From positions 1 to 64,000 of the forward strand of contig SIRU01000071.1 in the NCBI GenBank assembly GCA_004366385.1: a stretch of DNA of 64,000 nt. Reading direction: 5' to 3'. The notes under the pieces are model-generated. The model did not search any database. It was not told the origin of the DNA and saw only the letters and a program-made list of their open reading frames with translations. A program made the translations under genes and the position numbers. This document shows positions 50,238-64,000 of this stretch, one piece after another; positions within the stretch are counted from its first letter, which is position 1; every line of letters starts with the position of its first letter. Source of the DNA: Actinomycetota bacterium (GTDB taxonomy: Bacteria; Actinomycetota; Thermoleophilia; Gaiellales; Gaiellaceae).

Positions 50238-51884
50238 ATGACCCGGCCGACGGATCAGATCGACCGCCTGCGCGTGCTCGTCGACGCGGGCATCGCCATG
50301 AGCTCCGAGCTCTCGCTGGACACGCTGCTCCAGACGATCGTCGAGACGGCCGCGGAGCTGGCCGGCGCGCGATACGCCGCGCTCGGCGTGGTCGACCGCT
50401 CCGGCCAGAGCCTCGAGCGCTTCCTCACGACCGGGGTCGACGAGGAGACGCGCGCGGCGATCGGCGAGCTGCCGCGCGGACGCGGGCTCCTCGGCGCGGT
50501 GATCCGCGAAGGGAAGCCCGTCCGTCTGCACGAGATCTCCGACGACCCGCGCTCGGCCGGGTTCCCGCGGCACCACCCGCCCATGCACACCTTCCTCGGT
50601 GTCCCGATCCTCACGAGGGGGGTCGTCTTCGGGAACCTCTACCTCTCCGAGAAGGAGGGCGGAGGAGACTTCACCGAGGAGGACGAGGACCTCACGCAGC
50701 TGCTCGCCGCGCAGGCGGCGGTCGCGATCGACAACGCGCGGCTGTACGAGTCCTCCACGCGCTGGCTCCGGCAGCTCGAGTCGTTGCACGAGATCGGGAA
50801 CGCGCTGGCGGAGGAGCTCGAGCTGGAGCCGCTGCTCGCGATCGTGGCCGCGCGGCTGCGGGAGCTCGTGGACGCACGGATCGTGCTCGTCGCGACGCCG
50901 GACACGCCGGGCACGCTGCGCGTCGCGGCCGCGGACGGGGACGGGGTCGACGAGCTCGTGGGCATGCGCCTCGAGCTCGGCGGCTCGAAGGTGGGAAGGG
51001 TGCTCGAGCGGGCGCGCAGCGAGCGCGTCGACTCGCTCCTCGACGATCCCGAGGCCGACCAGCAGGCCGTGCGGACGCTCGGCGTGACGACGGCGCTGTA
51101 CGTGCCGCTCGTCGTCCACGGCCGTGCGGTCGGCGTCGTCGCCGCCCACGACAAGCAAGGCGCCGACCCGCGCTTCGCGGACGAGGACGTGCGCCTCGGC
51201 GAGTCGCTGGCGACGCGGGCGGCGATCGCCCTCGACCTCTCGGAGCGCGTGAGCCGGGACGCGGTGCGGCGCGTCGTCGACGCGCAGGAGCAGGAGCGAA
51301 CACGGCTCGCGCGCGAGCTCCACGACGAGACCGGGCAGGCGCTCACGTCCATCCTCCTCGGGCTCAAGTCGGTGGAGCAGGAGAGCGTCGCCGAGGAGGA
51401 CCGCGAGCGCGTCGCGGCGCTGCGCGAGCTCGTCGTCTCCACGCTCCAGGACGTGCGGAGGCTCGCGGTCGAGCTGCGGCCGGCCGCGCTCGACGACTTC
51501 GGCCTCGCGCCCGCGCTGGAGCGGCTCGCGGAGACGCACCGGACGCACGACGGCGTCGCAGTCGACGTCGAGGTGCGACTGGGAGACGACCGCCTGCCCG
51601 CGGAGGTCGAGACGACGGTCTACCGGATCGTCCAGGAGGCGCTGACGAACGTCGCCCGACACGCGAATGCTGCGAGGATCAGCATTCTCGTGGCGCGCAA
51701 GAACGGCAACGTGGTGGCGGTGATCGAGGACGACGGCTCCGGGTTCGACCCCGGGAGCGTCGGCGACGACAGCCTCGGGCTCGCGGGGATCCGGGAGCGG
51801 GTCGCGCTCGTCGGCGGGCGGCTGCGGCTGGAGACGGCGCCGGGGAAGGGGACGACGCTCGCCGCCGAGGTGCCGCTCCGGTGA
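50238..51884 (+). CDS. GAF-domain histidine kinase, DevS/NarX type
   Basis: A 548-residue soluble sensor kinase. Two GAF domains (about 15-165 and 185-330) are followed by a HisKA_3 dimerisation domain with His362 in RELHDETGQALTSIL and a HATPase domain (VQEALTNVARHANA, EDDGSGFDP, GLAGIRERV). The layout is that of DevS/DosT, whose first GAF binds heme; the first GAF here has histidines (RHHPPMH) but heme binding cannot be judged. ATG 50238 is used. Its stop overlaps the response regulator start (GTGA). Members of a stress-type gene set lie directly downstream. Confidence 0.88.
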   Translation: MTRPTDQIDRLRVLVDAGIAMSSELSLDTLLQTIVETAAELAGARYAALGVVDRSGQSLERFLTTGVDEETRAAIGELPRGRGLLGAVIREGKPVRLHEISDDPRSAGFPRHHPPMHTFLGVPILTRGVVFGNLYLSEKEGGGDFTEEDEDLTQLLAAQAAVAIDNARLYESSTRWLRQLESLHEIGNALAEELELEPLLAIVAARLRELVDARIVLVATPDTPGTLRVAAADGDGVDELVGMRLELGGSKVGRVLERARSERVDSLLDDPEADQQAVRTLGVTTALYVPLVVHGRAVGVVAAHDKQGADPRFADEDVRLGESLATRAAIALDLSERVSRDAVRRVVDAQEQERTRLARELHDETGQALTSILLGLKSVEQESVAEEDRERVAALRELVVSTLQDVRRLAVELRPAALDDFGLAPALERLAETHRTHDGVAVDVEVRLGDDRLPAEVETTVYRIVQEALTNVARHANAARISILVARKNGNVVAVIEDDGSGFDPGSVGDDSLGLAGIRERVALVGGRLRLETAPGKGTTLAAEVPLR

Positions 51885-52519
51885 GCATCAAGGTTCTCGT
51901 CGTGGACGACCACGCGGTCGTCCGCGCGGGCCTGCGCCGCGTGCTCGACGCGGAGGACGGCATCGAGACCGTCGGCGAGGCCCCGAACGCCGAGCGCGCC
52001 GTGTTCGAGGCCCTCGAGGCGAAGCCGGACGTCGTGCTCCTCGACATCGTCATGCCGGGGAAGAGCGGGATCGAGGGCATGCCCGCGCTCCTCCAGGCCG
52101 TGCCGGCGGCGAAGGTGCTCGTGCTCTCGATGCAGGACGACCCCCGGTACGTGCGCGAGGCGTTCGAGGCCGGGGCGAGCGGCTACGTGCTCAAGGAAGC
52201 GGCGGACACGGAGGTCGTGGACGCGGTGCGGGCGGTCGCGAACGGCGAGCGGTACCTGCACCCGGCGCTCGGCGCGCAGCTCGTCGCGGCGGAGGCCGAG
52301 GAGCGCAAGCGCGCAGAGTCGGATCCGCTGTCCGACCGCGAGCGCGAGGTGCTGAAGCTGCTCGCGCTCGGGCACACGAACCAGGAGATCGCCTCGCTCC
52401 TCTTCATCTCGGTCCGGACGGCCGAGACGCACCGGGCGCACATCATGCAGAAGCTCGGGCTGTCCTCCCGGGCCGAGCTCGTGCGCTACGCGCTCGACCA
52501 GGGGCTCATCGAGAGGTAG
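51881..52519 (+). CDS. NarL/DevR-type response regulator
   Basis: A 212-residue regulator. The receiver domain has DDHAVVR at 8-14 and the phospho-acceptor Asp55 in VVLLDIVMPG; Lys in YVLKEAADTE. The C-terminal LuxR-type helix-turn-helix reads LSDREREVLKLLALGHTNQE and SVRTAETHRAHIMQKLGLSS. It is translationally coupled to the kinase. It is the best candidate to bind the GTAGTTYCCCG motif found before three nearby genes, because DevR operators have similar GGGAC/GTCCC half sites. Confidence 0.9.
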   Translation: MSIKVLVVDDHAVVRAGLRRVLDAEDGIETVGEAPNAERAVFEALEAKPDVVLLDIVMPGKSGIEGMPALLQAVPAAKVLVLSMQDDPRYVREAFEAGASGYVLKEAADTEVVDAVRAVANGERYLHPALGAQLVAAEAEERKRAESDPLSDREREVLKLLALGHTNQEIASLLFISVRTAETHRAHIMQKLGLSSRAELVRYALDQGLIER

Positions 52520-52528
52520 CCCTCCGGA

Positions 52529-52891
52529 CTACGCCACGACGAGGACGTCCATCTCGGCGAGGCGGAGGAGCTCGGACGAGACGGAGTCGGGCGTGGGCGG
52601 CTCGCGGCGCCCGACGACGACGAGATCGGCCTCCAGCGAGCGGGCGGCTTCGAGGATCTCGGCGGCCGGCTCGCCGGCGCGCTCGACGTACGTCGCCTGG
52701 ACGTGCCGTCCGAGCAGGCGCTCGCGCGCGGCCGTGAGCCGCGCGCGGGCGTCGTCGTCCGCCGTGGTGGCGACGGCGACGACCGTGAGTGTCGAGCCGT
52801 AGCCGACGAGCCCGGAGGCCGTGTCGAGCGCTCGCAGCGCGGCTTCCGAGCCGTCGAAGCCGACGACGATCGTCCTGGGCTGCGCGGCCAT
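52529..52891 (-). CDS. universal stress protein (UspA family)
   Basis: A 120-residue single-domain Usp. The first strand carries TIVVGFDGSEAALRALD, and the C-terminal part has ADLVVVGRREPPTPDS. The usual ATP-binding GxxGxxGS(V) motif after VGRR is degenerate (EPPTPDSVSSELL), so nucleotide binding is doubtful. It is tail to tail with the DevR-like gene (9-bp gap). The shared regulatory motif lies 60-70 bp before the start, and an 11-bp hairpin (52918-52942) follows in the leader. Confidence 0.82.
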   Translation of the reverse strand: MAAQPRTIVVGFDGSEAALRALDTASGLVGYGSTLTVVAVATTADDDARARLTAARERLLGRHVQATYVERAGEPAAEILEAARSLEADLVVVGRREPPTPDSVSSELLRLAEMDVLVVA

Positions 52892-52917
52892 CTCGGCATG
52901 GTGGAGCGCCGGCGCGC

Positions 52918-52942
52918 GTCCGGCCTCCGGAGGAGGCCGGAC
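52918..52942 (-). other. hairpin in the universal stress gene leader
   Basis: GTCCGGCCTCC and its exact complement are separated by GGA. It lies 27-51 bp upstream of the ATG and would form in the 5' UTR if transcription starts near the upstream motif. Confidence 0.45.
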
Positions 52943-52950
52943 GCCCGGCG

Positions 52951-52961
52951 CGGGAAACTAC
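52951..52961 (-). promoter_or_regulatory. shared motif GTAGTTTCCCG before the universal stress gene
   Basis: The minus strand reads GTAGTTTCCCG from 52961 to 52951, 70 to 60 bp before ATG 52891. Near-identical motifs occur at 69 and 70 bp before the CBS and FNT genes. Confidence 0.55.
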
Positions 52962-53000
52962 GCAAGTGGCGCGGGCCGGAGGCATGCTCGTCCTGCATGT

Positions 53001-53026
53001 GAAGGGGGCGGTCTCCCGCCCCCTTC
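53001..53026 (-). terminator. hairpin after the membrane protein gene
   Basis: GAAGGGGGCGG and CCGCCCCCTTC pair over 11 bp with a TCTC loop, 62 bp past the stop of the minus-strand gene at 53088. It has no T-run. Confidence 0.45.
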
Positions 53027-53087
53027 GCTGCTCCGGGAGGTCGGAGCATTCGGTGTCCCGGGGCCTCCCGGCTTCGTTCCCCGGGCG

Positions 53088-53693
53088 CTAGCTCGTGATG
53101 GCCGTAGTCGTCGGCTTGTGGGCCGGTGCCGTCGCCTCCGCCTCGCGGCCGAAGACCGCGAAGGCGACGATGACGAGCCCGACGCCTGTGAGCAGGAGCG
53201 CGACGCCGACCACGAGGCCGAAGATCGACAGCTGCTCGGCCATGTAGCTCATGTTCAGCGCCGTGGTGATCGCGACCGCGGTCACCCAGCTCTGGCGGGC
53301 GAAGTTCGAGACCGGCTCGCCGTTCTCGTCCTTGAGCGCCGCCTCCTCGTCGCTCGTGCCCGCCGGATCGCTCGGATCCGCGGCAGATGCGTACCGGCCC
53401 ATCTCGGCGTACGTGAGGCCGCCGGTCCGCTCGAGCTGGTGCGAGCGCATGATCTTCGCGAACGCGCGGGCCTGCTCGCCGCTCGTGACCTGCTCGCCGT
53501 ACCACTGCGACGCGTACTGCGCCGTGGCCTCGTCGCCCGCGTCCTCGGTCGAGAAGAAGATCTGCTCGTCCTTGATCGAGTCGCGGACGGTCGTCATGCC
53601 GTTGATGCCCATGAAGATCGCGACTGCGCCGAAGACGATCAGCACGCCGCCGGCGACGAACCCGCCGATCTCCCAGAACCTTCTGCCCTTCAT
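53088..53693 (-). CDS. conserved actinobacterial membrane protein
   Basis: A 201-residue protein from ATG 53693 with GGGAGGTGG upstream. One helix near the N-terminus (GGFVAGGVLIVFGAVAIFMG) is followed by a long hydrophilic region with conserved-looking GEQARAFAKIMRSHQ and TYAEMGRY motifs, then two helices near the C-terminus (about 125-180). It resembles a family of unknown function found in many actinobacteria. A CCATC/GATGG palindrome about 70-80 bp upstream resembles the local regulatory motif only loosely. Confidence 0.7.
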   Translation of the reverse strand: MKGRRFWEIGGFVAGGVLIVFGAVAIFMGINGMTTVRDSIKDEQIFFSTEDAGDEATAQYASQWYGEQVTSGEQARAFAKIMRSHQLERTGGLTYAEMGRYASAADPSDPAGTSDEEAALKDENGEPVSNFARQSWVTAVAITTALNMSYMAEQLSIFGLVVGVALLLTGVGLVIVAFAVFGREAEATAPAHKPTTTAITS

Positions 53694-53837
53694 CGCTCCA
53701 CCTCCCGGTAGGAACTCTTGGTGTCGATGCGCAGAGGTTCGCCGGAGAGGCGACGCCGGCCATCGGGGGATGGCACCGCCGTCGTCGGGTGAAGCCGCCG
53801 TCGTGGTACGGGTTTGTACGGAGTCGTGGCGCGCGCG

Positions 53838-53874
53838 GACAACACTTTGTGGCTCAGAGCCACAAAGTGTTGTC
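53838..53874. repeat. 37-bp near-perfect palindrome (GTGGCTCAGAGCCAC core)
   Basis: Arms of 18 bp are perfectly complementary around a single A, with ACAACACTTTGTGGCTC on the left. It lies 8 bp after the stop of the acyl-CoA synthetase gene (minus strand) and could act as its terminator. The core recurs at 63238-63252. Confidence 0.75.
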
Positions 53875-53881
53875 GGGCGCG

Positions 53882-56560
53882 CTACCAGGTCTTGGCGCGG
53901 ACGACGACGTCGGGCCGCCGGGCGCGCACGCGCGCGTCGACGGCGACGCAGCGGTCGGGCAGCGCGAGCACCGGGTTCAGGTCGAGCTCCGCCAGCGCGT
54001 GCACATCCTCGCCGAGCCGGGCGAGGCGGAGGACGAGGTCGACGAGCGCGTCCGCGTCGGCGGGCGGCGCTCCGCGAAAGCCGGCGACGAGGCGACCCGC
54101 CTTCCCGGTCGTGACCAGCTCTCGCGCATCGACGTCGGTGAGCGGCGCGATCCGGAACGAGGCCTCGCCGATGAGCTCCGCGAGCACGCCTCCAGGCCCG
54201 AATGCGACGAGCGGGCCGAAGGTGGGGTCCTCGACGATGCCGGCGAGCAACTCGGCGCCTGCGTGGAGCATCGGCTGGACGACCACCGGCGTCCCGATCC
54301 GATCGACCGCCGCGCGGACGGCGTCCTCGTCGCGGAGGTCGAGCGCGATCCCGCCGGTCTCCGTCTTGTGCGCGCCGGGCGTCGCCGTCTTGACGACTGC
54401 CGGCAGGCCGAGGTCACGGGCGGCGGCGATCGCGTCGTCGGCGGTCTCCGCGACCCGCTCGGGGACGAGCGGGATCCCGTACGCGAGCAGGAGATCCCGC
54501 GTGTCGGCGGGATCGAGCCAGGCGTCGTCGCCCGAGGCGAGCGCGCGCTCGACGATCGCCTCCGCCGCCGCGCGGTCGATGCCGTCGAGCTCGGGCACCG
54601 TGCCCTGCGGCCGGCGGAGCCAGTCCGCCCGCTCGGCCGCGCGGCCGAGGGCGCGTGCGGCTGACTCGGGGTACGAGAACGCGGCCACGCGACCCGGCCC
54701 GTCGCGCAGGCCGTCCGGCACGCCCTCCGACGTCATCACGACCGCGAGCACGGGCTTGGCCGTGTCGGAGGCGGCGGCCGCGCGGTCGACGGCCTCGGCC
54801 ACCTCCTCCGCGGTCGCGCTCACCGCGGGCACGAAGAGCACGATGGCGGCGTCGACGTGCGGGTCGGCGAGGAGGAGCGGGACGGCGGCTTCGTACGTTG
54901 CGGCCGTCGCGCCGCCGAGCATGTCGACCGGGTTCGCGACGCTCGCTTCCGCCGGCAGGAACGCGCGCAGCGCGGCCTCCGTCTCGGGTGACAGGGACGG
55001 AAGGTCGAGACCGGCCGCGTCGCACGCGTCCGCGGCGAGGATCCCGAGCCCGCCCGCGTTCGTGACCAGCGCGACGCTGCGGCCCGCGAGGCGCGGCTGC
55101 GTCGAGAGCAGGGTCGCGACGTCGATGAGCTCCTCGAGCGTCTGCGCGCGGATGACGCCGGCCTGGTGGAAGAGCGCGTCCACGGCCGCCTCCGACCCCG
55201 CGAGCGCGGCCGTGTGCGAGCTCGCCGCGCGCTGGCCGCTCGCCGACGTCCCGCTCTTCAGCGCGAGGATCGGCTTCCGGCGCGCGACGCGACGCGCGAG
55301 CCGGCCGAAGCGGCGCGGGTTCCCGAAGGACTCGACGTAGAGGAGGATCGCCTCGGTCTCCTCGTCGTCCTCCCACCACTCGAGGAGGTCGTTCGAGGAC
55401 ACGTCGGCCTTGTTCCCGATCGAGACGAACGCGGACAGCCCGAGCCCGCGCGAGTCGGCCGCCTCGAGTAGCGCGAGGCCGAGCGCGCCCGACTGCGAGG
55501 AGAAGCCGATGTTTCCCGGCGCCGCCGCCCGCGCGGCGAAGGTCGCGTTGAGCCCGCGGCCGGGGACGGCGATCCCGAGGCAGTTCGGCCCGATGAGCCT
55601 GGCACCGTGCGCGCGGACGAGCGCGAGCAGCTGCTCCTGCCGCTCGACGCCCTCGCTCCCGATCTCCGCGAAGCCGGCCGAGATGACGACGAGCGCGCGC
55701 ACGCCTCGCCGCAGTGCCACGTCGGCCGCGTCGTTCACGAGGGCGGCCGGCAGCGAGATCACTGCGAGGTCGAGCTCACCCGGGATCTCGTCGACGGACG
55801 AGTAGCCACGCACGCCGGCGACCGCCTCGCCCTCGCGGTTCACGGGGTAGGCGGCCCCCTGGAAGTCGGCCGCGAGGATGTTGCGGAAGAGCTCGCCGCC
55901 GATCGATCCGCGTCGGCGCGAGGCGCCGATCACCGCGACGCTCTCGGGCTCGAAGAACGGCCGGAGCGACGCCCTCACCGCGACGTGGTCGCGCTCGTCC
56001 ACGCGCTCCTCGAAGCGCTCGGTGGGCGCGATCGGGAACCGCACCTCGACCTCGCCGCCCGCGAGCTCGCGCGTCAGCTCGTAGCCGGCCGCCTCGAAGA
56101 CGCCGAGCATGTCGCGGTTGTCGGCGAGCACCTCGGCGAGGAAGGACTCGATCCCGACCTCGGCCGCCCGCCGGGCGAGCTGCTCGAGCAGGCGCGTCCC
56201 GATCCCGCGGCGCTGGTACTCGTCCGCGACGCTGAAGGCCGCCTCCGCGACCGTCGGGTCGCGCAGCCGCTCGTAGCTCGCGACCGCGACGACGTGCTCG
56301 TCCGCGCCGTCCTCGGCGAACGCGCCGAGCAGCGCGCCGCGCTCGACCCAGTCGGGCTCGAGCAGCCGCTCCACCAGCTCCGGCCGGATCGACGGCATCC
56401 CGTGGAAGCGCTGGTACAGGCTGCGGGGCGAGAGCCCGGCGAAGAACGCGAGCAGCGCGTCGGTGTCCTCGCGGCGGGGCGGGCGCAGGCGGAGCGAGCG
56501 CCCGTCCCGGAGGATGACGTCGACGACGTCGGAGGCCGCGGCCGTGTCGGGCTGGCTCAT
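53882..56560 (-). CDS. GNAT acetyltransferase fused to ADP-forming acyl-CoA synthetase-like domains
   Basis: An 892-residue Pat-type protein with the GNAT domain first (residues 10-165: VADEYQRRGIGTRLLEQL is the acetyl-CoA loop). A CoA-binding domain (about 205-330: SVAVIGASRRRGSIGGE), two ligase-type domains with the phospho-histidine His449 in SSHTAALAGSE, and an ATP-grasp domain (about 680-890) follow. The histidine is intact, so synthetase activity is possible, unlike many Pat proteins. The likely role is acyl-CoA metabolism or lysine acetylation of acyl-CoA synthetases. It lies 13 bp after the CBS gene, in the same operon. Confidence 0.87.
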   Translation of the reverse strand: MSQPDTAAASDVVDVILRDGRSLRLRPPRREDTDALLAFFAGLSPRSLYQRFHGMPSIRPELVERLLEPDWVERGALLGAFAEDGADEHVVAVASYERLRDPTVAEAAFSVADEYQRRGIGTRLLEQLARRAAEVGIESFLAEVLADNRDMLGVFEAAGYELTRELAGGEVEVRFPIAPTERFEERVDERDHVAVRASLRPFFEPESVAVIGASRRRGSIGGELFRNILAADFQGAAYPVNREGEAVAGVRGYSSVDEIPGELDLAVISLPAALVNDAADVALRRGVRALVVISAGFAEIGSEGVERQEQLLALVRAHGARLIGPNCLGIAVPGRGLNATFAARAAAPGNIGFSSQSGALGLALLEAADSRGLGLSAFVSIGNKADVSSNDLLEWWEDDEETEAILLYVESFGNPRRFGRLARRVARRKPILALKSGTSASGQRAASSHTAALAGSEAAVDALFHQAGVIRAQTLEELIDVATLLSTQPRLAGRSVALVTNAGGLGILAADACDAAGLDLPSLSPETEAALRAFLPAEASVANPVDMLGGATAATYEAAVPLLLADPHVDAAIVLFVPAVSATAEEVAEAVDRAAAASDTAKPVLAVVMTSEGVPDGLRDGPGRVAAFSYPESAARALGRAAERADWLRRPQGTVPELDGIDRAAAEAIVERALASGDDAWLDPADTRDLLLAYGIPLVPERVAETADDAIAAARDLGLPAVVKTATPGAHKTETGGIALDLRDEDAVRAAVDRIGTPVVVQPMLHAGAELLAGIVEDPTFGPLVAFGPGGVLAELIGEASFRIAPLTDVDARELVTTGKAGRLVAGFRGAPPADADALVDLVLRLARLGEDVHALAELDLNPVLALPDRCVAVDARVRARRPDVVVRAKTW

Positions 56561-56573
56561 CGCGGGTTTCGTA

Positions 56574-56996
56574 TCAGACGCCCGCGAGCGCGTTCACGAT
56601 GTCGAGCGTCGAGAGCACGCCCGCCGGCCTCCCGGTGCCCGGCTCCACGACGACGAGGTGCGACACGCCGTAGCGCGTCATGAGCCTCGCGGCGAGCTCG
56701 AGCGTGTCTCCGGGATGGACTGTCAGCGCGGTGCCGCCGGCCGAGCCGCCGGCCACCTGCGATTCGAGGTCGCGCACCGTCGCCGCGGCGATGAGGTCGA
56801 GGTCGGAGATGAGGCCGGCCACCTCCGGGCTCGCGCCGTCCGCCTCCCCGTGCACGACGACCGCGTGGACGTGGCGCGCGGCCATGAGCTCCGCGACCTC
56901 CGAGAGCGTCGCCTCGGGCGGGCACGAGAACACTCCCGGGTGCATCGCCTCCGCGACGGTCTTGCTCACCAGGGCGTGCGTGCCCGCGCCGATCAT
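56574..56996 (-). CDS. two-CBS-domain protein (Hrp1-like)
   Basis: A 140-residue protein made of two CBS domains (about 13-68: VAEAMHPGVFSCPPEATLSE; about 85-138: ALTVHPGDTLELAARLMTRY). Such stand-alone pairs bind adenine nucleotides. Mycobacterium Hrp1 of the DosR regulon has the same layout. ATG 56996 follows GGTGAAGG. The shared GTAGTTCCCCGAA motif lies 57-69 bp upstream, inside the 3' end of the P-type ATPase gene, giving the CBS-Pat pair its own possible promoter. Confidence 0.88.
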   Translation of the reverse strand: MIGAGTHALVSKTVAEAMHPGVFSCPPEATLSEVAELMAARHVHAVVVHGEADGASPEVAGLISDLDLIAAATVRDLESQVAGGSAGGTALTVHPGDTLELAARLMTRYGVSHLVVVEPGTGRPAGVLSTLDIVNALAGV

Positions 56997-57000
56997 GCCT

Positions 57001-59685
57001 TCACCTTCCCGTCGCCGCGGCGCGGGCACGTCCGCGCACGACCCGATCCGGCTTCGGGGAACTACGGCTCGCACGCCGCCGCGCGACCGCCTTGCGCGCC
57101 TCCTCCGCGCCGAAGACGACGAACGGGATGGGCGCGAGCACGAGCCAGTGCCACCCGTCGATCGGCGCCTGGTGGAAGGCCGAGTTCAGCCCGGGGACAT
57201 AGATCAGCGCCGCGGCGAGCGCGAGCTCGAGGGCGATCGCCACGAGCAGGAAGCGGTTCGAGAGCAGGCCGATCGAGAAGACCGAGCGGCGGTTCGTCCG
57301 CATCGACATCCCAGCGCCGACCTGGCCCATGACGATGCCGGTCTGCGTCATCGTGGTCGCCTGCACGTACGCGAGGCCGCTCGCCGGGAGCGACGACCCG
57401 GGCCGCCAGCCGCCGAGCAGGAAGGACACGAAGAAGGCGCCGAGCGCGAGCACGCCCTCGAGCGGGCCGACGAAGGCGTAGGCGCGTGAGAGCACGCGCG
57501 GGCCGAGCAGGCGCTCGCCTCGGGGCCGCGGCGGCCGGGTCATCGTCCCCGGCTCCGCCCGTTCGGTTCCGAGTGCGATCGCGGGGAGCATGTCCGTGCC
57601 GAGGTCGATCGCGAGCACCTGCATGACGGTCAGCGGCAGCGGGATCTCGCCCCCCGAGAGCCCCCACGCGACGAACGGGAGCAGCTCCGCGACGTTCGAG
57701 CAGAAGTGGTAGACGGCGAAGCGGCGGATGTTGTCGTACACCGCGCGTCCCTCCTCGACCGCCGTGACGACGGTCGCGAAGTCGTCGTCGAGGAGGATCA
57801 TGTCGGCGGCCTCCTTCGCGACGTCCGTCCCGCGCCGGCCCATGGCGACGCCGATGTCGGCCTCGCGGAGCGCGGGCGCGTCGTTCACGCCGTCGCCGGT
57901 CATCGCGACGACCTCGCCGGACTCCCGGAGCACGCGCGCGAGGCGCAGCTTCTGCTCGGGCGCGATGCGGGCGAAGACGACGTCGTGCTCGTCGAGGAGC
58001 CCGCGCAGGCGCGTGTCGTCGATCCCGTCGAGAGCGTGGCCGTCGACGACGTGCGCGCGGTTGCGGACGAGGCCGATCCGCTTCGCGATCGCCGCGGCCG
58101 TCGTGCCGGCGTCGCCGGTGGCCATGAGCACGCGGATCCCGGCGGCGTGGCAGCGCGCGATCGCCTGTGGCACCTCCGGGCGCGGCGGGTCGTGCATCCC
58201 GACGAGGCCGAGCAGCTCCAGGCCGTCCTCGAGCTCGAGCGCGTGCGCGTCCCCCTCGGGGAGGCTCTTGCGAGCGAGCGCCAGGACGCGGAGGGCGTCC
58301 GCCTCGAGCGCGCGTGCGGCCGCCTCCGCCCGCTCCCGCTCCCGCTCGGAGAGCGAGCACGCCTGGATCACGTCCTCGGGCGCTCCCTTCACGTAGGCGA
58401 CGAGGCCGGCGCCGGTCGCGTGCACGGTCGTCATCCGCCGCCGCTTCGCGTCGAACGGGATCTCGCGGACGCGCGGGAGGTGCGCGACCTCCTGCTCCTG
58501 GCGCAGCCCGCCCTTCTCCGCGAGCACGACGAGCGCGCCCTCGGTCGGGTCGCCGAGCACGCCCCAGCCCTCCGGGGTCGAGACCAGGCGGCTGTCGTTG
58601 CAGAGGAGCCCTGCGCGCAGCAGCTCTGCCACCGGCTGCGGCTGGACGACGCGCCCGGCCGCGCGGAAGCGCCCGAACGGCTCGTAGCCCGCGCCCTCCA
58701 CCTCGAGCTCGAGCTCGGGCGTCCAGACCCGGACGGCCGTGAGCTCGTTCTCGGTGAGCGTGCCGGTCTTGTCCGTGCAGATGACCGTCGTCTCGCCGAG
58801 CGTCTCCACGGACGAGAGCCCGCGGACGAGCGCGTTCCGCCGCGCCATCCGCTGCGTCGCGAGCGCGAGCGCGAGCGTCACCGTCGGGAGCAGTCCCTCG
58901 GGGACGTTCGCGACCATCACGCCGACGGCGAACACGAACCGCTCCTCGAGACCCATCCCGAGCCAGCCGGCGACGAAGAAGAACGCGGTGCCGATGCCGG
59001 CGGAGGCGACCGCGACCAGGCGCGTGACGTGCTTCAGCTCGACCTCGAGCGGGCTCGGCTTCTCGCGCGTGCGGTGCGTGAGCTCGGCGATGCGGCCGAA
59101 CTCCGTCCGCATCCCCGTCTCCGTGACGAGCCCCTCGCCGCGGCCCGACACGACGTACGTGCCTGCGTACACCTTCTCCTCGGGCGCGACCGGCCACGAC
59201 TCGCCGGTGAGGGTCGAGTTGTCGACGCGCAGCTCGACGACCTCGAGCAGGTCGGCGTCGGCGCTCACACGGTCGCCTTCCTCGAGCAAGAGCACGTCGC
59301 CCGGGACGAGCTCCTCTGCCGGGATCTCGACCGGCTCCCCGTCGCGCCGGACGCGCGCCGCCTGCGGGAGCATCTGCCGGAGCGCCTCGGCGGCGCGCTC
59401 GGCCCGGTACTCCTGGGCGAACGCGAAGCCCGCGTTCACGAGCACGACGACGACGATCGCGATCGACAGCTCGGGCATCCCGGCCAGCCACGCGAGCCCC
59501 GCCCCGGCCCAGAGGAGCAGCGCGAAGAGGTGCCCGAGCTGCGCGAGAAAGCGGCGGACGTGCGACGGCCGCTCCGGCTCAGCGAGGGCGTTCGGGCCGA
59601 CCTCGGCGAGACGTTGCCGCGCCTCGGCGGCGGTGAGGCCGGAGGCGCCCTCCGGCGTGCGGAGTGCTTCGGCCGTGCCGATCAT
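57001..59685 (-). CDS. P-type cation-transporting ATPase (P2 type, CtpF/PMA1-like)
   Basis: An 894-residue cation pump. Motifs are the actuator LTGES, the phosphorylated Asp305 in CTDKTGTLTEN, and the hinge TGDGVNDAPALREADIGVAMG. The transmembrane segment VANVPEGLLPTVTLALALAT (PEGL) marks the P2A/P2B/P2C group, suggesting calcium or other cations. Ten hydrophobic segments are visible including the C-terminal block. The start is ATG 59685, with GGAGGTG close upstream. The stop is 4 bp from the CBS start. The gene is divergent from the MacB-like permease. Confidence 0.88.
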   Translation of the reverse strand: MIGTAEALRTPEGASGLTAAEARQRLAEVGPNALAEPERPSHVRRFLAQLGHLFALLLWAGAGLAWLAGMPELSIAIVVVVLVNAGFAFAQEYRAERAAEALRQMLPQAARVRRDGEPVEIPAEELVPGDVLLLEEGDRVSADADLLEVVELRVDNSTLTGESWPVAPEEKVYAGTYVVSGRGEGLVTETGMRTEFGRIAELTHRTREKPSPLEVELKHVTRLVAVASAGIGTAFFFVAGWLGMGLEERFVFAVGVMVANVPEGLLPTVTLALALATQRMARRNALVRGLSSVETLGETTVICTDKTGTLTENELTAVRVWTPELELEVEGAGYEPFGRFRAAGRVVQPQPVAELLRAGLLCNDSRLVSTPEGWGVLGDPTEGALVVLAEKGGLRQEQEVAHLPRVREIPFDAKRRRMTTVHATGAGLVAYVKGAPEDVIQACSLSERERERAEAAARALEADALRVLALARKSLPEGDAHALELEDGLELLGLVGMHDPPRPEVPQAIARCHAAGIRVLMATGDAGTTAAAIAKRIGLVRNRAHVVDGHALDGIDDTRLRGLLDEHDVVFARIAPEQKLRLARVLRESGEVVAMTGDGVNDAPALREADIGVAMGRRGTDVAKEAADMILLDDDFATVVTAVEEGRAVYDNIRRFAVYHFCSNVAELLPFVAWGLSGGEIPLPLTVMQVLAIDLGTDMLPAIALGTERAEPGTMTRPPRPRGERLLGPRVLSRAYAFVGPLEGVLALGAFFVSFLLGGWRPGSSLPASGLAYVQATTMTQTGIVMGQVGAGMSMRTNRRSVFSIGLLSNRFLLVAIALELALAAALIYVPGLNSAFHQAPIDGWHWLVLAPIPFVVFGAEEARKAVARRRASRSSPKPDRVVRGRARAAATGR
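57053..57065 (-). promoter_or_regulatory. shared motif GTAGTTCCCCGAA before the CBS gene
   Basis: The minus strand reads GTAGTTCCCCGAA from 57065 to 57053, 69 to 57 bp before ATG 56996. The same 13-mer, in the same orientation to its gene, lies before FNT. Confidence 0.6.
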
Positions 59686-59828
59686 CACCTCCAGCGTCCC
59701 GCCGGCCCTGCTCGGGCGCATCCGCGCGCGGACGGACCGGTGTGCGGCTACCCCGCAGCGCCGCTCGGGGCACCCCCCGACGCGCCCGTACGGCCCCGGC
59801 CGGAACATCGGTAGAGACGGAGGCCACC

Positions 59829-60935
59829 GTGTTCCGAGCGATCGTCCTCAAGAACCTCGTCCGCCAGCGCGTCCGCACGAGCCTCACCGCGCTCGGGATC
59901 GCGATCGGCATCGCGACCGTGCTCGCGCTCGGCGTCATCACGAGCGGGCTCAAGGCCTCGCTCGGGGAGTTCGTGACTGCGGGCGGCGCCGACTTCATGG
60001 TCGCCCAGAAGGGCGCGTCCGACCTCAGCTTCAGCGCCGTCCCCGAGGAGACCGTCGCCGCGCTCGCCCGGCGGGACGACGTCGCCCGCGCAGACGGGTT
60101 CGAGCTGAAGATCACGACCCTCGGGTCGAACCCGTACTTCATCCTCTACGGCTTCGAGGCCGACGCGCTCGGGGCGCAGGGGCTCGAGCTGCGTGAGGGC
60201 GAGCTGCCCGCGGCTGCGGACGAGATCGCGCTGGGCGTCGACGCGGCCGCCTCGAACGCGCTCGCGGCCGGCGACACCGTCGTCTTCGAGCACCGGACCT
60301 TCCGCGTCTCCGGCGTGTACGAGGTAGCGGACACGCTGCGCCGCTCGGGTGGCGTGGCGCTCCTCGCCACGGTCCAGGAGCTCGGGAACCGGCCGGGCGT
60401 CGTGACCGCCGCCTACGTCACCGTCGCCCCGGGCGAGGACCCCGTCGCGGTCGCGGAGGCGATCGAGCGGGATCTCCCGACACTGGCGGCGATCGCGGAC
60501 GTCGACGACTACGGCGAGGTCGACCAGGGCGTCCGGATCATGGACGCGGTGAACCTCGCGATCTCGCTCCTCGCGGTCGGGATCGGCGCGATCGGCGTGA
60601 TGAACACGATGATCATGTCCGTCTTCGAGCGCACGCGCGAGATCGGGATCCTGCGCGCGGTCGGGTGGCGCGGGTCGCGGATCGTGCGGATGGTGCTGCT
60701 CGAGTCGCTCGCGCTGTGCGGGATCGCCGCGGTCGTGGGGATCGCGCTCGGCCTGCTCGCGACGCGCGCGGTGCTGGCCATACCCACGGTGTCGTCCTTC
60801 CTCGTCCCCTCCTACGCGCCCGAGGTGTTCATCCGCGCGCTCGCCGTCGGGGTCGTCGTGGCGCTGATCGGCGCTGCGTACCCGGCGGTGCGCGCGGTGC
60901 GGCTCTCGCCGATGGAGGCGCTGCGCCATGAGTGA
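59829..60935 (+). CDS. MacB/FtsX-type ABC transporter permease
   Basis: A 368-residue permease with an N-terminal helix (LTALGIAIGIATVLALGVIT), a large extracytoplasmic MacB_PCD-like domain (about 40-235), and three C-terminal helices forming the FtsX domain. The signature stretch FERTREIGILRAVGWRGSRI is present, as is the family-typical end RAVRLSPMEALRHE. GTG 59829 follows GGAGG. The ATPase gene overlaps it by 8 bp (ATGAGTGA). It probably acts in lipoprotein, peptide or drug export, or in envelope mechanotransmission. Confidence 0.88.
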   Translation: MFRAIVLKNLVRQRVRTSLTALGIAIGIATVLALGVITSGLKASLGEFVTAGGADFMVAQKGASDLSFSAVPEETVAALARRDDVARADGFELKITTLGSNPYFILYGFEADALGAQGLELREGELPAAADEIALGVDAAASNALAAGDTVVFEHRTFRVSGVYEVADTLRRSGGVALLATVQELGNRPGVVTAAYVTVAPGEDPVAVAEAIERDLPTLAAIADVDDYGEVDQGVRIMDAVNLAISLLAVGIGAIGVMNTMIMSVFERTREIGILRAVGWRGSRIVRMVLLESLALCGIAAVVGIALGLLATRAVLAIPTVSSFLVPSYAPEVFIRALAVGVVVALIGAAYPAVRAVRLSPMEALRHE

Positions 60936-61662
60936 GCCCGTGATCTCCGTCCGCGGCGTGCGCAAGAGCTTCGAGGACGGGCGCATCGTCGCGCTGCGCG
61001 GGATGGATCTCGAGGTCGCGGAGGGCGAGTTCGTCGCGCTCGTGGGGCCGTCCGGGTGCGGAAAGTCGACGCTCCTCCACTTGATCGCAGCGCTCGACCG
61101 CCCGGACGAGGGCGCGATCCGGGTGGCCGGTCGCGCGCTCGAGGAGGCGAACGACCTCAGCGCGCACCGCGCGCACGAGGTCGGGCTGATCTTCCAGCTG
61201 CACAACCTCATGCCTGCGCTGACGGCGAGCGAGAACGTGCAGGTGCCGATGTTCGAGCTCGGGCTCCCGGGGCGCGAGCGGCGCGAGCGCGCGCACGCGC
61301 TGCTCGCGGCGGTGGGGCTCGAGGGGCGCGAGCGGAACCGCCCGCCGCAGCTCTCCGGCGGCGAGCGGCAGCGCGTCGCGGTCGCGCGGGCGCTCGCGAA
61401 CGAGCCGCCGATCCTGCTCGCCGACGAGCCGACCGGGAGCCTCGACTCCGAGGCCGGGGCGACCGTGCTCGACCTGATCGAGCGCCTGCGGCGCGAGCGG
61501 GGGCTCACCGTCGTCCTCGTCACGCACGATACGGGCGTGGCCGCGCGCGCCGACCGGATCGTGACCATGCTCGACGGCCACGTGGTCGGTAGTTCCCCGA
61601 ACGACCGCTCCGCGGCGGCGCCGACGACCCGGCTCGCAGCTTCCACGAGGGTGACGCCATGA
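60928..61662 (+). CDS. MacB/LolD-type ABC transporter ATP-binding protein
   Basis: A 244-residue ATPase with Walker A GPSGCGKST, Q-loop in GLIFQLHNLMPALTASENV, signature [15 protein letters not shown], Walker B ILLADEPTGSLDS and H-loop VLVTHD. The VFQ..NL-type and DEPTGxLDS motifs are typical for the MacB/LolD group. It pairs with the permease upstream. Its 3' end contains the motif at 61589-61601 upstream of FNT. Confidence 0.92.
   Translation: MSEPVISVRGVRKSFEDGRIVALRGMDLEVAEGEFVALVGPSGCGKSTLLHLIAALDRPDEGAIRVAGRALEEANDLSAHRAHEVGLIFQLHNLMPALTASENVQVPMFELGLPGRERRERAHALLAAVGLEGRERNRPPQLSGGERQRVAVARALANEPPILLADEPTGSLDSEAGATVLDLIERLRRERGLTVVLVTHDTGVAARADRIVTMLDGHVVGSSPNDRSAAAPTTRLAASTRVTP
61589..61601 (+). 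promoter_or_regulatory. shared motif GTAGTTCCCCGAA before the FNT gene
   Basis: GTAGTTCCCCGAA lies 70 to 58 bp before ATG 61659, inside the 3' end of the ATPase gene. It is identical to the motif before the CBS gene. Just outside, GGTCG and CGACC form an additional inverted pair. Confidence 0.6.
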
Positions 61663-62558
61663 CGGCGGTCGAGACGCGCGACGACGGGCCGGAGACTCCC
61701 TCGACGCTGTTCACGCCGACCGGGCTCGACGCGCTCGCCCCGGCGGACGTCGCGCGCAAGGCGGAGACGATCGGCGTCGCGAAGGCCGGGATGCCGGCGG
61801 TGACCGTGTTCGTCCTCGCCGTGCTCGCGGGCGCGTTCATCGCGCTCGGGGCGATCTTCGCGACGACGGTGGCGGCAGGCGGGGCCGACCTGCCCTACGG
61901 CGTCGTGCGGCTGCTCGCCGGCCTCACCTTCACCCTCGGCCTGATCCTCGTCGTCGTCGCGGGCGCCGAGCTGTTCACCGGCAACAACCTCATCGTCATG
62001 GCCTGGGCCGGGCGGCGCGTCACCACGGCCCGCCTCGCCGGGAACTGGACGCTCGTCTGGATCGGGAACTTCGTCGGCGCGCTCGCGACCGCGCTGCTCG
62101 TCTTCGTGAGCAGGCAGTACGAGTTCGGCGGCGGTGCAGTGGGCGAGACTGCGCTCGCGATCGCGGCCGCGAAGACGAACCTCGGGTTCGTGCAGGCGGT
62201 CGCGCTCGGGATGCTCTGCAACGCGCTCGTCTGCCTCGCCGTCTGGCTCACCTACGGCGCGCACACGACCACGGACAAGATCATCGCGGTGATCCCGCCG
62301 ATCGCCGCCTTCGTCGCGGCCGGCTTCGAGCACTCGATCGCGAACATGTACTTCATCTCGATCGGGCTCCTCGTGAAGGCCGACGACGGGTTCGTCGCCG
62401 GCCTCGACTCCCCGCCCGACCTCTCGACCCTGGATTTGGACGGCTTCCTCCTGGGCAACCTCCTCCCCGTGACGATCGGCAACGTCATCGGCGGCGCGGT
62501 GATGGTGGGCGCCGTGTACTGGTTCGTGTACCTGCGCCCCCGAGAGGAGGAGCGATGA
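61659..62558 (+). CDS. formate/nitrite transporter (FNT family)
   Basis: A 299-residue pentameric-type channel with six hydrophobic segments. FNT marks include ELFTGNNLIVMAWAGRR near residue 104, NWTLVWIGNFVGAL, LGMLCNALVCLAVWL and GFEHSIANMYFISIGLL (with the central pore histidine). Transport of formate, nitrite or hydrosulfide cannot be told apart. It is coupled to the upstream ATPase (4-base overlap) and to the flavodoxin-like gene downstream (ATGA). Confidence 0.9.
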   Translation: MTAVETRDDGPETPSTLFTPTGLDALAPADVARKAETIGVAKAGMPAVTVFVLAVLAGAFIALGAIFATTVAAGGADLPYGVVRLLAGLTFTLGLILVVVAGAELFTGNNLIVMAWAGRRVTTARLAGNWTLVWIGNFVGALATALLVFVSRQYEFGGGAVGETALAIAAAKTNLGFVQAVALGMLCNALVCLAVWLTYGAHTTTDKIIAVIPPIAAFVAAGFEHSIANMYFISIGLLVKADDGFVAGLDSPPDLSTLDLDGFLLGNLLPVTIGNVIGGAVMVGAVYWFVYLRPREEER

Positions 62559-63049
62559 GGGTCCTGGTGGCGGCGGCGAGCCGGCACGGCGCGACCTCGG
62601 AGATCGGAGAGACGATCGCCGAGGCGCTCCGCGAGCACGGCCTCGAGGCCGACGCGAAGCCTCCCGAGGAGGTGCACGACCTCGCCGGCTACGACGCGGT
62701 CGTGCTCGGGAGCGCCGTCTACGTCGGCAAGTGGCTCGACCCGGCGCGCGACCTGGTCGAGCGGCGCGCGGACGAGCTCTGCACGAAGCCGGTCTGGCTC
62801 TTCTCCAGCGGGCCGATCGGCGAGCCGCTGCGCCCGTCGCCGGAGGACGCCGTCGACGTCGAGAGCCTCGTCTCCGCGACCCGTGCCCGCGGCCACCGCC
62901 TCTTCGGCGGCAAGCTGGACAAGGGCCGCCTCGGCTTCGGCGAGAAGGCGGTCGTGCTCGCCTTCCGCGCGCCCGAGGGCGACTTCCGCGACTGGGACGA
63001 GATCCGGTCCTGGGCCGCGGAGATCGCCGCCGCGCTCGCACCCGCCTGA
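62555..63049 (+). CDS. flavodoxin-domain protein (HemG/menaquinone-dependent oxidase-like)
   Basis: A 164-residue flavodoxin-fold protein. The FMN phosphate loop is in AAASRHGATSEIGETIAEAL near the N-terminus, followed by YDAVVLGSAVYVGKWLDPAR and a VWLFSSGPIGEPL strand. The same order occurs in HemG-type protoporphyrinogen oxidases and related quinone reductases. It is the last gene in the ABC-FNT operon. No other heme genes are nearby, so the role may be general redox. Confidence 0.8.
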   Translation: MRVLVAAASRHGATSEIGETIAEALREHGLEADAKPPEEVHDLAGYDAVVLGSAVYVGKWLDPARDLVERRADELCTKPVWLFSSGPIGEPLRPSPEDAVDVESLVSATRARGHRLFGGKLDKGRLGFGEKAVVLAFRAPEGDFRDWDEIRSWAAEIAAALAPA

Positions 63050-63237: not shown

Positions 63238-63252
63238 GTGGCTCAGAGCCAC
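63238..63252. repeat. GTGGCTCAGAGCCAC palindrome core
   Basis: The 15-bp core is identical to the centre of the 53838-53874 palindrome. The right flank (GAAGTGCTCTGTCC) also resembles it, but the left flank is replaced by the end of copy C. Confidence 0.6.
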
Positions 63253-63378: not shown

Positions 63379-64000
63379 ATGGCTGCAATCGCTCCCCCGA
63401 TCGTCGAGGCCCGGGCAGTGCACAAGACGTACGACACGGGCGTCGTCAAGGTCGCTGCGCTCCGAGGCGTCGATCTCGCCCTCGAGGCGGGCGAGATGGT
63501 CGCGATCATGGGCCCGAGCGGGTGCGGGAAGACGACTCTGCTCAACTGCCTGTCCGGGCTGGACGCGATCGACGGCGGCCAGGTGCTCGTCGAGGGCACG
63601 CCGCTCGAGGAGATGTCCGACCGCGAGCGCACCGACACCCGTGCCCGGCGCATGGGGTTCGTGTTCCAGTTCTACAACCTGATCCCGGTCCTGACCTCGG
63701 TCGAGAACGTCGAGCTGCCGCTGCTCGTCTCGCGGGTCGACGGCGACGAGGCGCGCGAGCGCGCGCTCGCGTCGCTCGACCTCGTCGGCCTCGCCGGGCG
63801 GGCGCACCACGTCCCCGACGAGCTCTCGGGCGGCGAGCGCCAGCGCGTCACCATCGCGCGCTCGCTCGTGAACGACCCGGCGATCGTGTGGGCCGACGAG
63901 CCGACCGGCGACCTCGACTCGGAGAACGCAGAGGAGATCGTCGCCCTCATGCGCCGGCTCAACCTCGAGCGCGGGCTCACGTTCCTGATCGTCACCCACG
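63379..64000 (+). CDS. ABC transporter ATP-binding protein, MacB/LolD type (cut by window end)
   Basis: The first 207 residues of an ATPase from ATG 63379, with GAGGAGG upstream. Walker [11 protein letters not shown]-loop [19 protein letters not shown], signature [15 protein letters not shown], Walker [14 protein letters not shown] and H-loop IVTH are all present. It is a second member of the group already represented at 60928, probably serving a separate permease beyond the window. Confidence 0.9.

Follow-up and report, generated by a model that had tools for sequence, protein, structure and literature searches.

In Mycobacterium, the kinases DosS and DosT and the response regulator DosR (DevR) form a two-component system whose regulon includes CBS proteins such as Hrp1. 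Passages of PMC3029386 describe DevR promoters with closely packed boxes, the start-proximal one lying over the −35 region, and cooperative binding to a secondary site, while parts of PMC5999986 assign base reading by DosR mainly to Lys182, in addition to Lys179 and Asn183. In Streptomyces coelicolor, sections of PMC5069765 describe a DosR-like pair, OsdK/OsdR, with a 16-nucleotide palindromic site before universal stress protein (USP), nitroreductase, and other genes, and with many USP genes near the pair. The same sections and parts of PMC4082495 also supplied features of the DosR dormancy regulon used for comparison. Here, we analyze a 64,000-nucleotide stretch (the window) of contig SIRU01000071.1, assembly GCA_004366385.1, from a member of the Gaiellaceae (class Thermoleophilia). 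In it, an 11-mer, GTAGTTYCCCG, stands before the genes of a USP, a CBS-pair protein, and a formate/nitrite-type channel (FNT), and a DosS/DosR-like kinase–regulator pair is encoded on the same stretch.

The 11-mer belongs to a tandem pair of boxes with a fixed promoter geometry, which recurs in the class and co-occurs with the kinase. Judged from these comparisons, the three genes very probably belong to a hypoxia/redox regulon of the DosR kind that has an operator code of its own and is run by the pair at 50238-51884 and 51881-52519. Literature searches for Thermoleophilia with DosR, or with two-component systems and hypoxia, returned nothing, most subscription papers lying outside their coverage; a looser search gave two papers, each with a single mention of the class.

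Architecture of the tandem-box promoters

The window contains three exact copies of the 11-mer, at 52951-52961 (−), 57055-57065 (−), and 61589-61599 (+), located 70, 69, and 70 bp before the ATG of the USP, CBS, and FNT genes, respectively. The sequence-only reading that first pointed to the motif had described this agreement in sequence, strand, and distance correctly, together with the location of two copies (those of CBS and FNT) within the 3′-terminal coding sequence of the genes before them. In the whole genome of the organism (the own genome, G000; 2.73 Mb, 63 contigs, 97% complete), the 11-mer occurs exactly five times and its reversed pattern not at all. With random placement, the probability that three of five points fall within 8.65 kb is 3e-4. 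Allowing one mismatch, there are 82 copies, the five exact ones included, against 30 for the reversed control. Across the genome the excess at one mismatch is thus only mild, and the bare 11-mer is not decisive alone. The weight of the case rests on what surrounds it: a second box, a −10 element, and recurrence in other genomes.

The fourth exact copy is found 91 bp before an SQR-like gene. The fifth lies antisense within an oxidoreductase open reading frame (ORF) and is most likely background. The own genome has 12 USP-family matches; at the ten further loci examined, the exact motif does not precede the gene. Among the own genome and 100 relatives, 64 of 101 carry the 11-mer; 63 of the 95 distinct exact family sites are antisense inside called ORFs, nearly all in one frame coding Gly-Asn-Tyr, and look like background.

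A 16-bp imperfect palindrome, TSCGTASTTYYCCGCA, with outer TSCG/CGCA, has the 11-mer as its core. This distal box lies upstream in a tandem pair, a reading that replaces the earlier interpretation of the motif as one DosR half-site with an extra base. The proximal box, TCSG-N8-CSGA, is weaker, lies 22–23 bp downstream, and is often followed by TG. When a position weight matrix (PWM) of the distal box is used to locate a second copy, the top score falls at offset 23, followed by 24 and 22. The proximal boxes of the three window promoters are listed in Table 1, and that of the SQR-like gene is TCCGGTCACGTGCGGA. Over the 64 kb of the window the proximal pattern matches 34 times (26 expected), and each of the three promoters has it at offset 22 or 23.

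On the scale that places the USP and FNT start codons at +70, an alignment of 19 sites shows conserved bases outside the search pattern: T at −3 (15/19), C at +11 (14/19), and A at +12 (12/19). The sites were hand-picked, partly for CSGATG, and only these three positions count as unselected. The CSGATG block at +31/+32 is exact in 10 of the 19, a figure influenced by that picking. In a retest on 45 held-out sites, CSGAYG occurs at +32 in 11 and at +31 in 9, with a mean of 0.39 per offset.

A separate −10 hexamer, xAnnnT, lies further downstream. Within 45 sites from kinase neighborhoods it is found at +58 in 14 and at +57 in 11, with about one per offset otherwise. A search of 399 class genomes for the tandem-box pattern (at most one mismatch) gave 132 places in 79 genomes. 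Of these places 71 were examined, namely those in 30 loci and 40 that we chose from the 74 lying outside the family. The hexamer, whose bases lie outside this search pattern, stands at +58 in 56 of the 71 and at +59 in 8. Each of the three window promoters has all three elements.

A downstream start was called for 60 of the 71 places: 11 lie exactly at +70, 16 at 69–73, and 20 at 85–106, the latter leaving room for a leader; three, at 682 bp or more, fall outside our list of distances, which covers 57 places. Since a simple codon-usage caller was used, distances above about 110 bp may reflect wrong starts. Transcription probably begins near +70, which in the USP, CBS, and FNT genes is the start codon itself, so that their mRNAs would be leaderless. 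Fixed promoter geometry combined with leaderless starts would explain the shared distance from motif to ATG. Relative to this putative transcription start, the distal and proximal boxes are centered at about −65 and −42, respectively.

Three other assignments were rejected: CSGATG as the −10 element, given the separate hexamer; the 11-mer as a −35 element, being too far from the start; and the ATG within CSGATG as the start codon, which is out of the frame of the gene at several sites. A related alternative would have an alternative sigma factor recognize both blocks as promoter elements, in place of an activator binding them as operators. The fixed spacing to the start would suit such a factor, as would the conservation of CSGATG near −35, which extends beyond the palindrome by its TG. 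However, the 11-mer lies about 60–70 bp before the putative start, too distant for a −35 element, the two blocks resemble each other and are both palindrome-like, and a separate −10 is present. We therefore regard a sigma factor as a very improbable explanation and treat the blocks as predicted operators.

Recurrence in the class and association with the kinase

The 79 genomes with the tandem pattern comprise 36 of 103 from the own family and 43 of 296 others, and they represent seven of the 12 family groups sampled (f1, f2, f5, f8, f10, f11, and f12). The reversed form is absent from all 399 genomes. We scanned 40 of the 52 downstream proteins within 400 bp against Pfam. They include four USPs, four Pyr_redox_2 proteins (SQR/NADH-type), two cytochrome bd subunits I, and two cytochromes b, whose starts were called at 221 and 301 bp. 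Hsp20, CBS-BON, flavodoxin, OsmC, ornithine carbamoyltransferase, GNAT-acyl-CoA ligase, and a DevR-like regulator occur once each. There are also single members of other families, e.g., an amino acid permease, an MMPL protein, and a GGDEF protein, and seven proteins have no family. In our reading, these genes appear to be mainly a low-oxygen/redox set. Within the family, many of the exact sites other than the antisense ones stand upstream of stress genes; they precede genes for Hsp20 (at 93 bp in locus L299 and 96 bp in L291), USP (89 bp, L300), a CBS protein (104 bp, L316), and a DevR-like regulator (69 bp, L332). One locus (L373, G057:C91:3197-3280) has divergent, back-to-back tandem-box promoters, with an SQR-like gene on one side and a gene for a protein without Pfam family on the other.

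A PWM built from 12 sites, none of them within the test loci, was applied to 59 loci around orthologs of the window kinase. At 16 bits or more, it gives 36 matches in 24 of the 59 loci. Column-permuted PWMs, 60 in all, give 3.2 on average and 12 at most, and the reversed PWM gives 2. At 14 bits or more, 42 of 48 matches are intergenic, although 78% of the DNA of these loci is called coding. Among family genomes with a kinase ortholog, 13 of 32 have an exact site accompanied by two or more of four extra features, as against none of 29 that lack the ortholog (p 5e-5); the feature score was built partly on the same sites, so only the link to the kinase counts as independent.

The tandem pattern itself is found in 32 of 61 genomes of the own family with a kinase ortholog and in 4 of 42 without (p 4e-6). 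Orthologs were read from a table, with a best E of at most 7e-70 as the criterion; a fragment with 71% identity at the end of a contig (G123) was also counted. Outside the family we chose two sets of 17 genomes, one with tandem matches, in most cases at least two per genome, and one of highly complete genomes lacking them. A GAF-kinase match, in some cases split or partial, is present in 17/17 of the former and 3/17 of the latter (p 5e-7). In 11 of the 17 operator-positive genomes, no more than 10 kb separates a site from a kinase on the same contig, according to coordinates that we read off. In G060 (the L332 site) and G248 (L440), the site stands 69 and 73 bp, respectively, before a DevR-like regulator gene beside the kinase.

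These data also bear on the possibility that the tandem boxes serve a different dimeric factor, of the NarL/LuxR type or other, whose co-occurrence with the DosS-like pair is incidental. Such a factor would fit the four family genomes that match without a kinase ortholog, and the rarity of the site before regulator genes (1 of 59 loci). Against it stand the PWM enrichment around the kinase, the co-occurrence of operator and kinase in two samples, and the two genomes with a site before the adjoining regulator gene. We consider this alternative unlikely, and control by the kinase–regulator pair remains the preferred reading.

Conservation at orthologs was tested at a threshold of at least 10 bits, with a PWM that includes six sites from the tested loci, among them the sole regulator match and one synthetase match. 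Sites were found before 3/3 USP, 1/2 SQR-like, 1/7 CBS, and 2/10 ABC ATPase orthologs, 7/25 orthologs of the small membrane protein gene at 53088-53693, and 4/26 acyl-CoA synthetase orthologs; before P-type ATPase orthologs there were none (0/2). For other-family genes in the same loci the figure is 16/554. Five of the seven sites of the membrane protein orthologs lie at 124–128 bp, the window candidate lying at 126 bp. No site precedes the FNT orthologs of genus and family (0/7; 11 non-own genomes have a match, of which one locus, L123, lacks upstream DNA and three fragments were left out). The conservation proposed earlier as a check thus fails for FNT, whose role as a target would be lineage-specific, and holds to varying degrees for the USP, membrane protein, synthetase, CBS, and SQR-like genes. 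This patchy retention suggests that regulon membership turns over between species. In three other genomes, orthologs of the GNAT-acyl-CoA synthetase fusion have an operator 70 bp upstream.

A further alternative is chance, the 11-mer having been spotted by eye in three upstream regions. The 82 genomic copies at up to one mismatch, the background-like antisense sites, and the FNT orthologs without a site are in line with it. Chance does not account for the conservation of positions outside the search (T at −3, the −10 at +58, and the second box in held-out loci), nor for the absence of the reversed tandem pattern from the 399 genomes. For the element as such chance is already refuted, and we give it next to no probability; for a single window site, above all that of FNT, it is still arguable.

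Kinase, regulator, and features of the window

The N-terminal GAF domain of the kinase is closest in the PDB to 2vzw (E 1e-49), which we take to be DosT, and it matches DevS GAF domains at 2e-41 to 3e-40 (DevS 2y8h, 2.4e-41). His113 and Tyr135 have the 22-residue spacing of the proximal His149 and distal Tyr171 of DosS. By sequence, the domain is a DosS/DosT-type heme pocket with predicted heme binding, and HisKA_3 and HATPase_c domains are also present. In the own genome, one segment, which holds a match to a USP and one to a kinase, is present on contigs C18 and C34 with identical scores, through either duplication or assembly overlap.

The regulator combines a receiver domain (PF00072) with the phospho-Asp at Asp55 and a GerE domain (PF00196). 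Its best overall PDB match is VraR (7.5e-44), and DevR 3c3w matches at 3.7e-30. Arg179, Glu182, and Thr183 stand where DosR has Lys179, Lys182, and Asn183, a pairing that rests on the near-zero offset of the PDB match and on the DosR helix; the core DNA-contact residues are thus not those of DosR. All 53 aligned rows that have a residue at this position show Glu182.

We propose the following mechanism. The kinase would sense low oxygen, NO/CO, or redox state through its DosS/DosT-type heme pocket and phosphorylate the adjoining NarL/DosR-type regulator. Phosphorylated dimers would bind the strong distal palindrome, centered at about −65, and, cooperatively, the weaker proximal palindrome at about −42, which overlaps the −35 region. 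The bound dimers may recruit RNA polymerase to the promoter with its xAnnnT −10, and the USP, CBS, and FNT mRNAs would start at the ATG.

Several observations weigh against this reading. Strong sites in the own genome number only four, and sites with two mismatches are barely above the control there, too small an excess to name further ones. FNT orthologs lack the site, and the tandem pattern was not found in five of the 12 sampled family groups (f3, f4, f6, f7, and f9). Of the kinase neighborhoods, 35 of 59 have no PWM match of at least 16 bits. Operator and kinase also occur apart: besides the four matching family genomes without a kinase ortholog, a similar kinase is found in 3 of the 17 operator-negative genomes outside the family, or in four if the GAF-only match in G191 is counted. 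Finally, the kinase and regulator genes of the window have no site. With regulator genes preceded by one in 1/59 loci, this indicates that autoregulation is not general; before kinase genes the count is 0/54.

The core of the sequence-only reading, namely that the DevS/DevR-like pair controls a regulon through a new type of operator, nevertheless gains strong comparative support, and control of the three genes by the pair is what we infer from it. It is also fairly likely that the regulon extends across the Thermoleophilia, with a DosS/DosT-type kinase, a Glu182 regulator, and a new tandem operator, TSCGTASTTYYCCGCA plus TCSG-N8-CSGATG, and that it includes respiration genes (cytochrome bd, cytochrome b, SQR-like) and dormancy-type genes, many of them leaderless. 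If so, a dormancy switch of the DosR kind would extend to another actinobacterial class, one known mostly from uncultured members. Its readable promoter code, with two boxes, a fixed −10, and an often leaderless start, could allow low-oxygen genes to be predicted in many genomes, and the recognition residue and the operator, which differ together from those of DosR, would offer a natural experiment on the evolution of specificity in the NarL family.

Table 1. Predicted operators, promoter elements, and genes of the window
Feature	Position	Strand	Sequence or domains	Remarks
DosS/DosT-like sensor histidine kinase	50238-51884	+	heme-type GAF, second GAF, HisKA_3, HATPase (Pfam)	
NarL/DosR-type response regulator	51881-52519	+	receiver (Asp55), GerE DNA-binding domain (Pfam)	GTG start
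USP gene	52529-52891	−	Usp (Pfam)	start +70; leaderless if −10 is right
Candidate −10, USP gene	52898-52903	−	CACCAT	xAnnnT at +58
Proximal operator (predicted), USP gene	52926-52941	−	TCCGGCCTCCTCCGGA	23 bp downstream of distal
Distal operator (predicted), USP gene	52949-52964	−	TGCGTAGTTTCCCGCG	
Small membrane protein gene	53088-53693	−	DUF3185-like (below Pfam cut-off)	
Degraded candidate operator	53807-53822	−	TCCGTACAAACCCGTA	126 bp before ATG 53693; no −10 match
GNAT-acyl-CoA synthetase fusion	53882-56560	as CBS gene		after CBS gene
CBS-pair protein gene	56574-56996	−		start +69
Candidate −10, CBS gene	57003-57008	−	GAAGGT	+57
Proximal operator (predicted), CBS gene	57031-57046	−	TCGGGTCGTGCGCGGA	22 bp downstream of distal
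Distal operator (predicted), CBS gene	57053-57068	−	GCCGTAGTTCCCCGAA	
Distal operator (predicted), FNT gene	61586-61601	+	TCGGTAGTTCCCCGAA	
Proximal operator (predicted), FNT gene	61609-61624	+	TCCGCGGCGGCGCCGA	23 bp downstream of distal
Candidate −10, FNT gene	61647-61652	+	GAGGGT	+58
FNT gene	61659-62558	+	PF01226 (Pfam)	start +70
Flavodoxin gene	62555-63049		PF12724	overlaps FNT gene end

The FNT and flavodoxin genes are flanked by paralogous ABC ATPase genes (61275-61528 and 63747-64000) that are 71% identical over 254 nt. A further palindrome, GTGGCTCNGAGCCAC, occurs at 53849-53863 and 63238-63252, with arms that are often longer, up to AACACTTTGTGGCTCAGAGCCACAAAGTGTT at the first copy. 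At up to one mismatch it has 59 places in the own genome against 2 for the reversed control, some in pairs 60–110 bp apart, and the codon-usage caller places 5 of 10 distinct sites examined between genes. As a genome-wide repeat, it was rejected as part of the regulon; it is a candidate REP-like element or terminator.

Comparison with known systems

The pair shares with DosS/DosT–DosR a heme-GAF kinase with proximal His and distal Tyr and a NarL-type regulator, and the USP, Hsp20, CBS, and redox-type targets of the DosR regulon are found here too. As in DevR promoters, the boxes are close together, 22–23 bp apart, with the proximal center at about −42 from the putative start. In contrast, the operator TSCGTASTTYYCCGCA differs from that of DosR, TTSGGGACTWWAGTCCCSAA in the form given by the sequence-only reading, and even with three mismatches allowed, this 20-mer matches nowhere in the window. 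By the residue pairing given above, the regulator has Glu182 in place of Lys182 in DosR. Given these differences in operator letters and recognition residues, the system would work like DosR and should not be filed as DosR.

OsdK/OsdR resembles the present system in its DosR-like pair, its 16-nucleotide palindromic site, and its USP targets. Its consensus, AGGGCCGATCGGCCCT, is different, and a relaxed form of it shows no enrichment, matching the window 56 times where 92 matches are expected. Regulators of the NarL/VraR type have the GerE domain in common with ours, and a 7-2-7 inverted repeat, the spacing of NarL, is one possible reading of the box; here, by contrast, the partner kinase is of the DosS/DosT type and the target genes are of the hypoxia/stress type.

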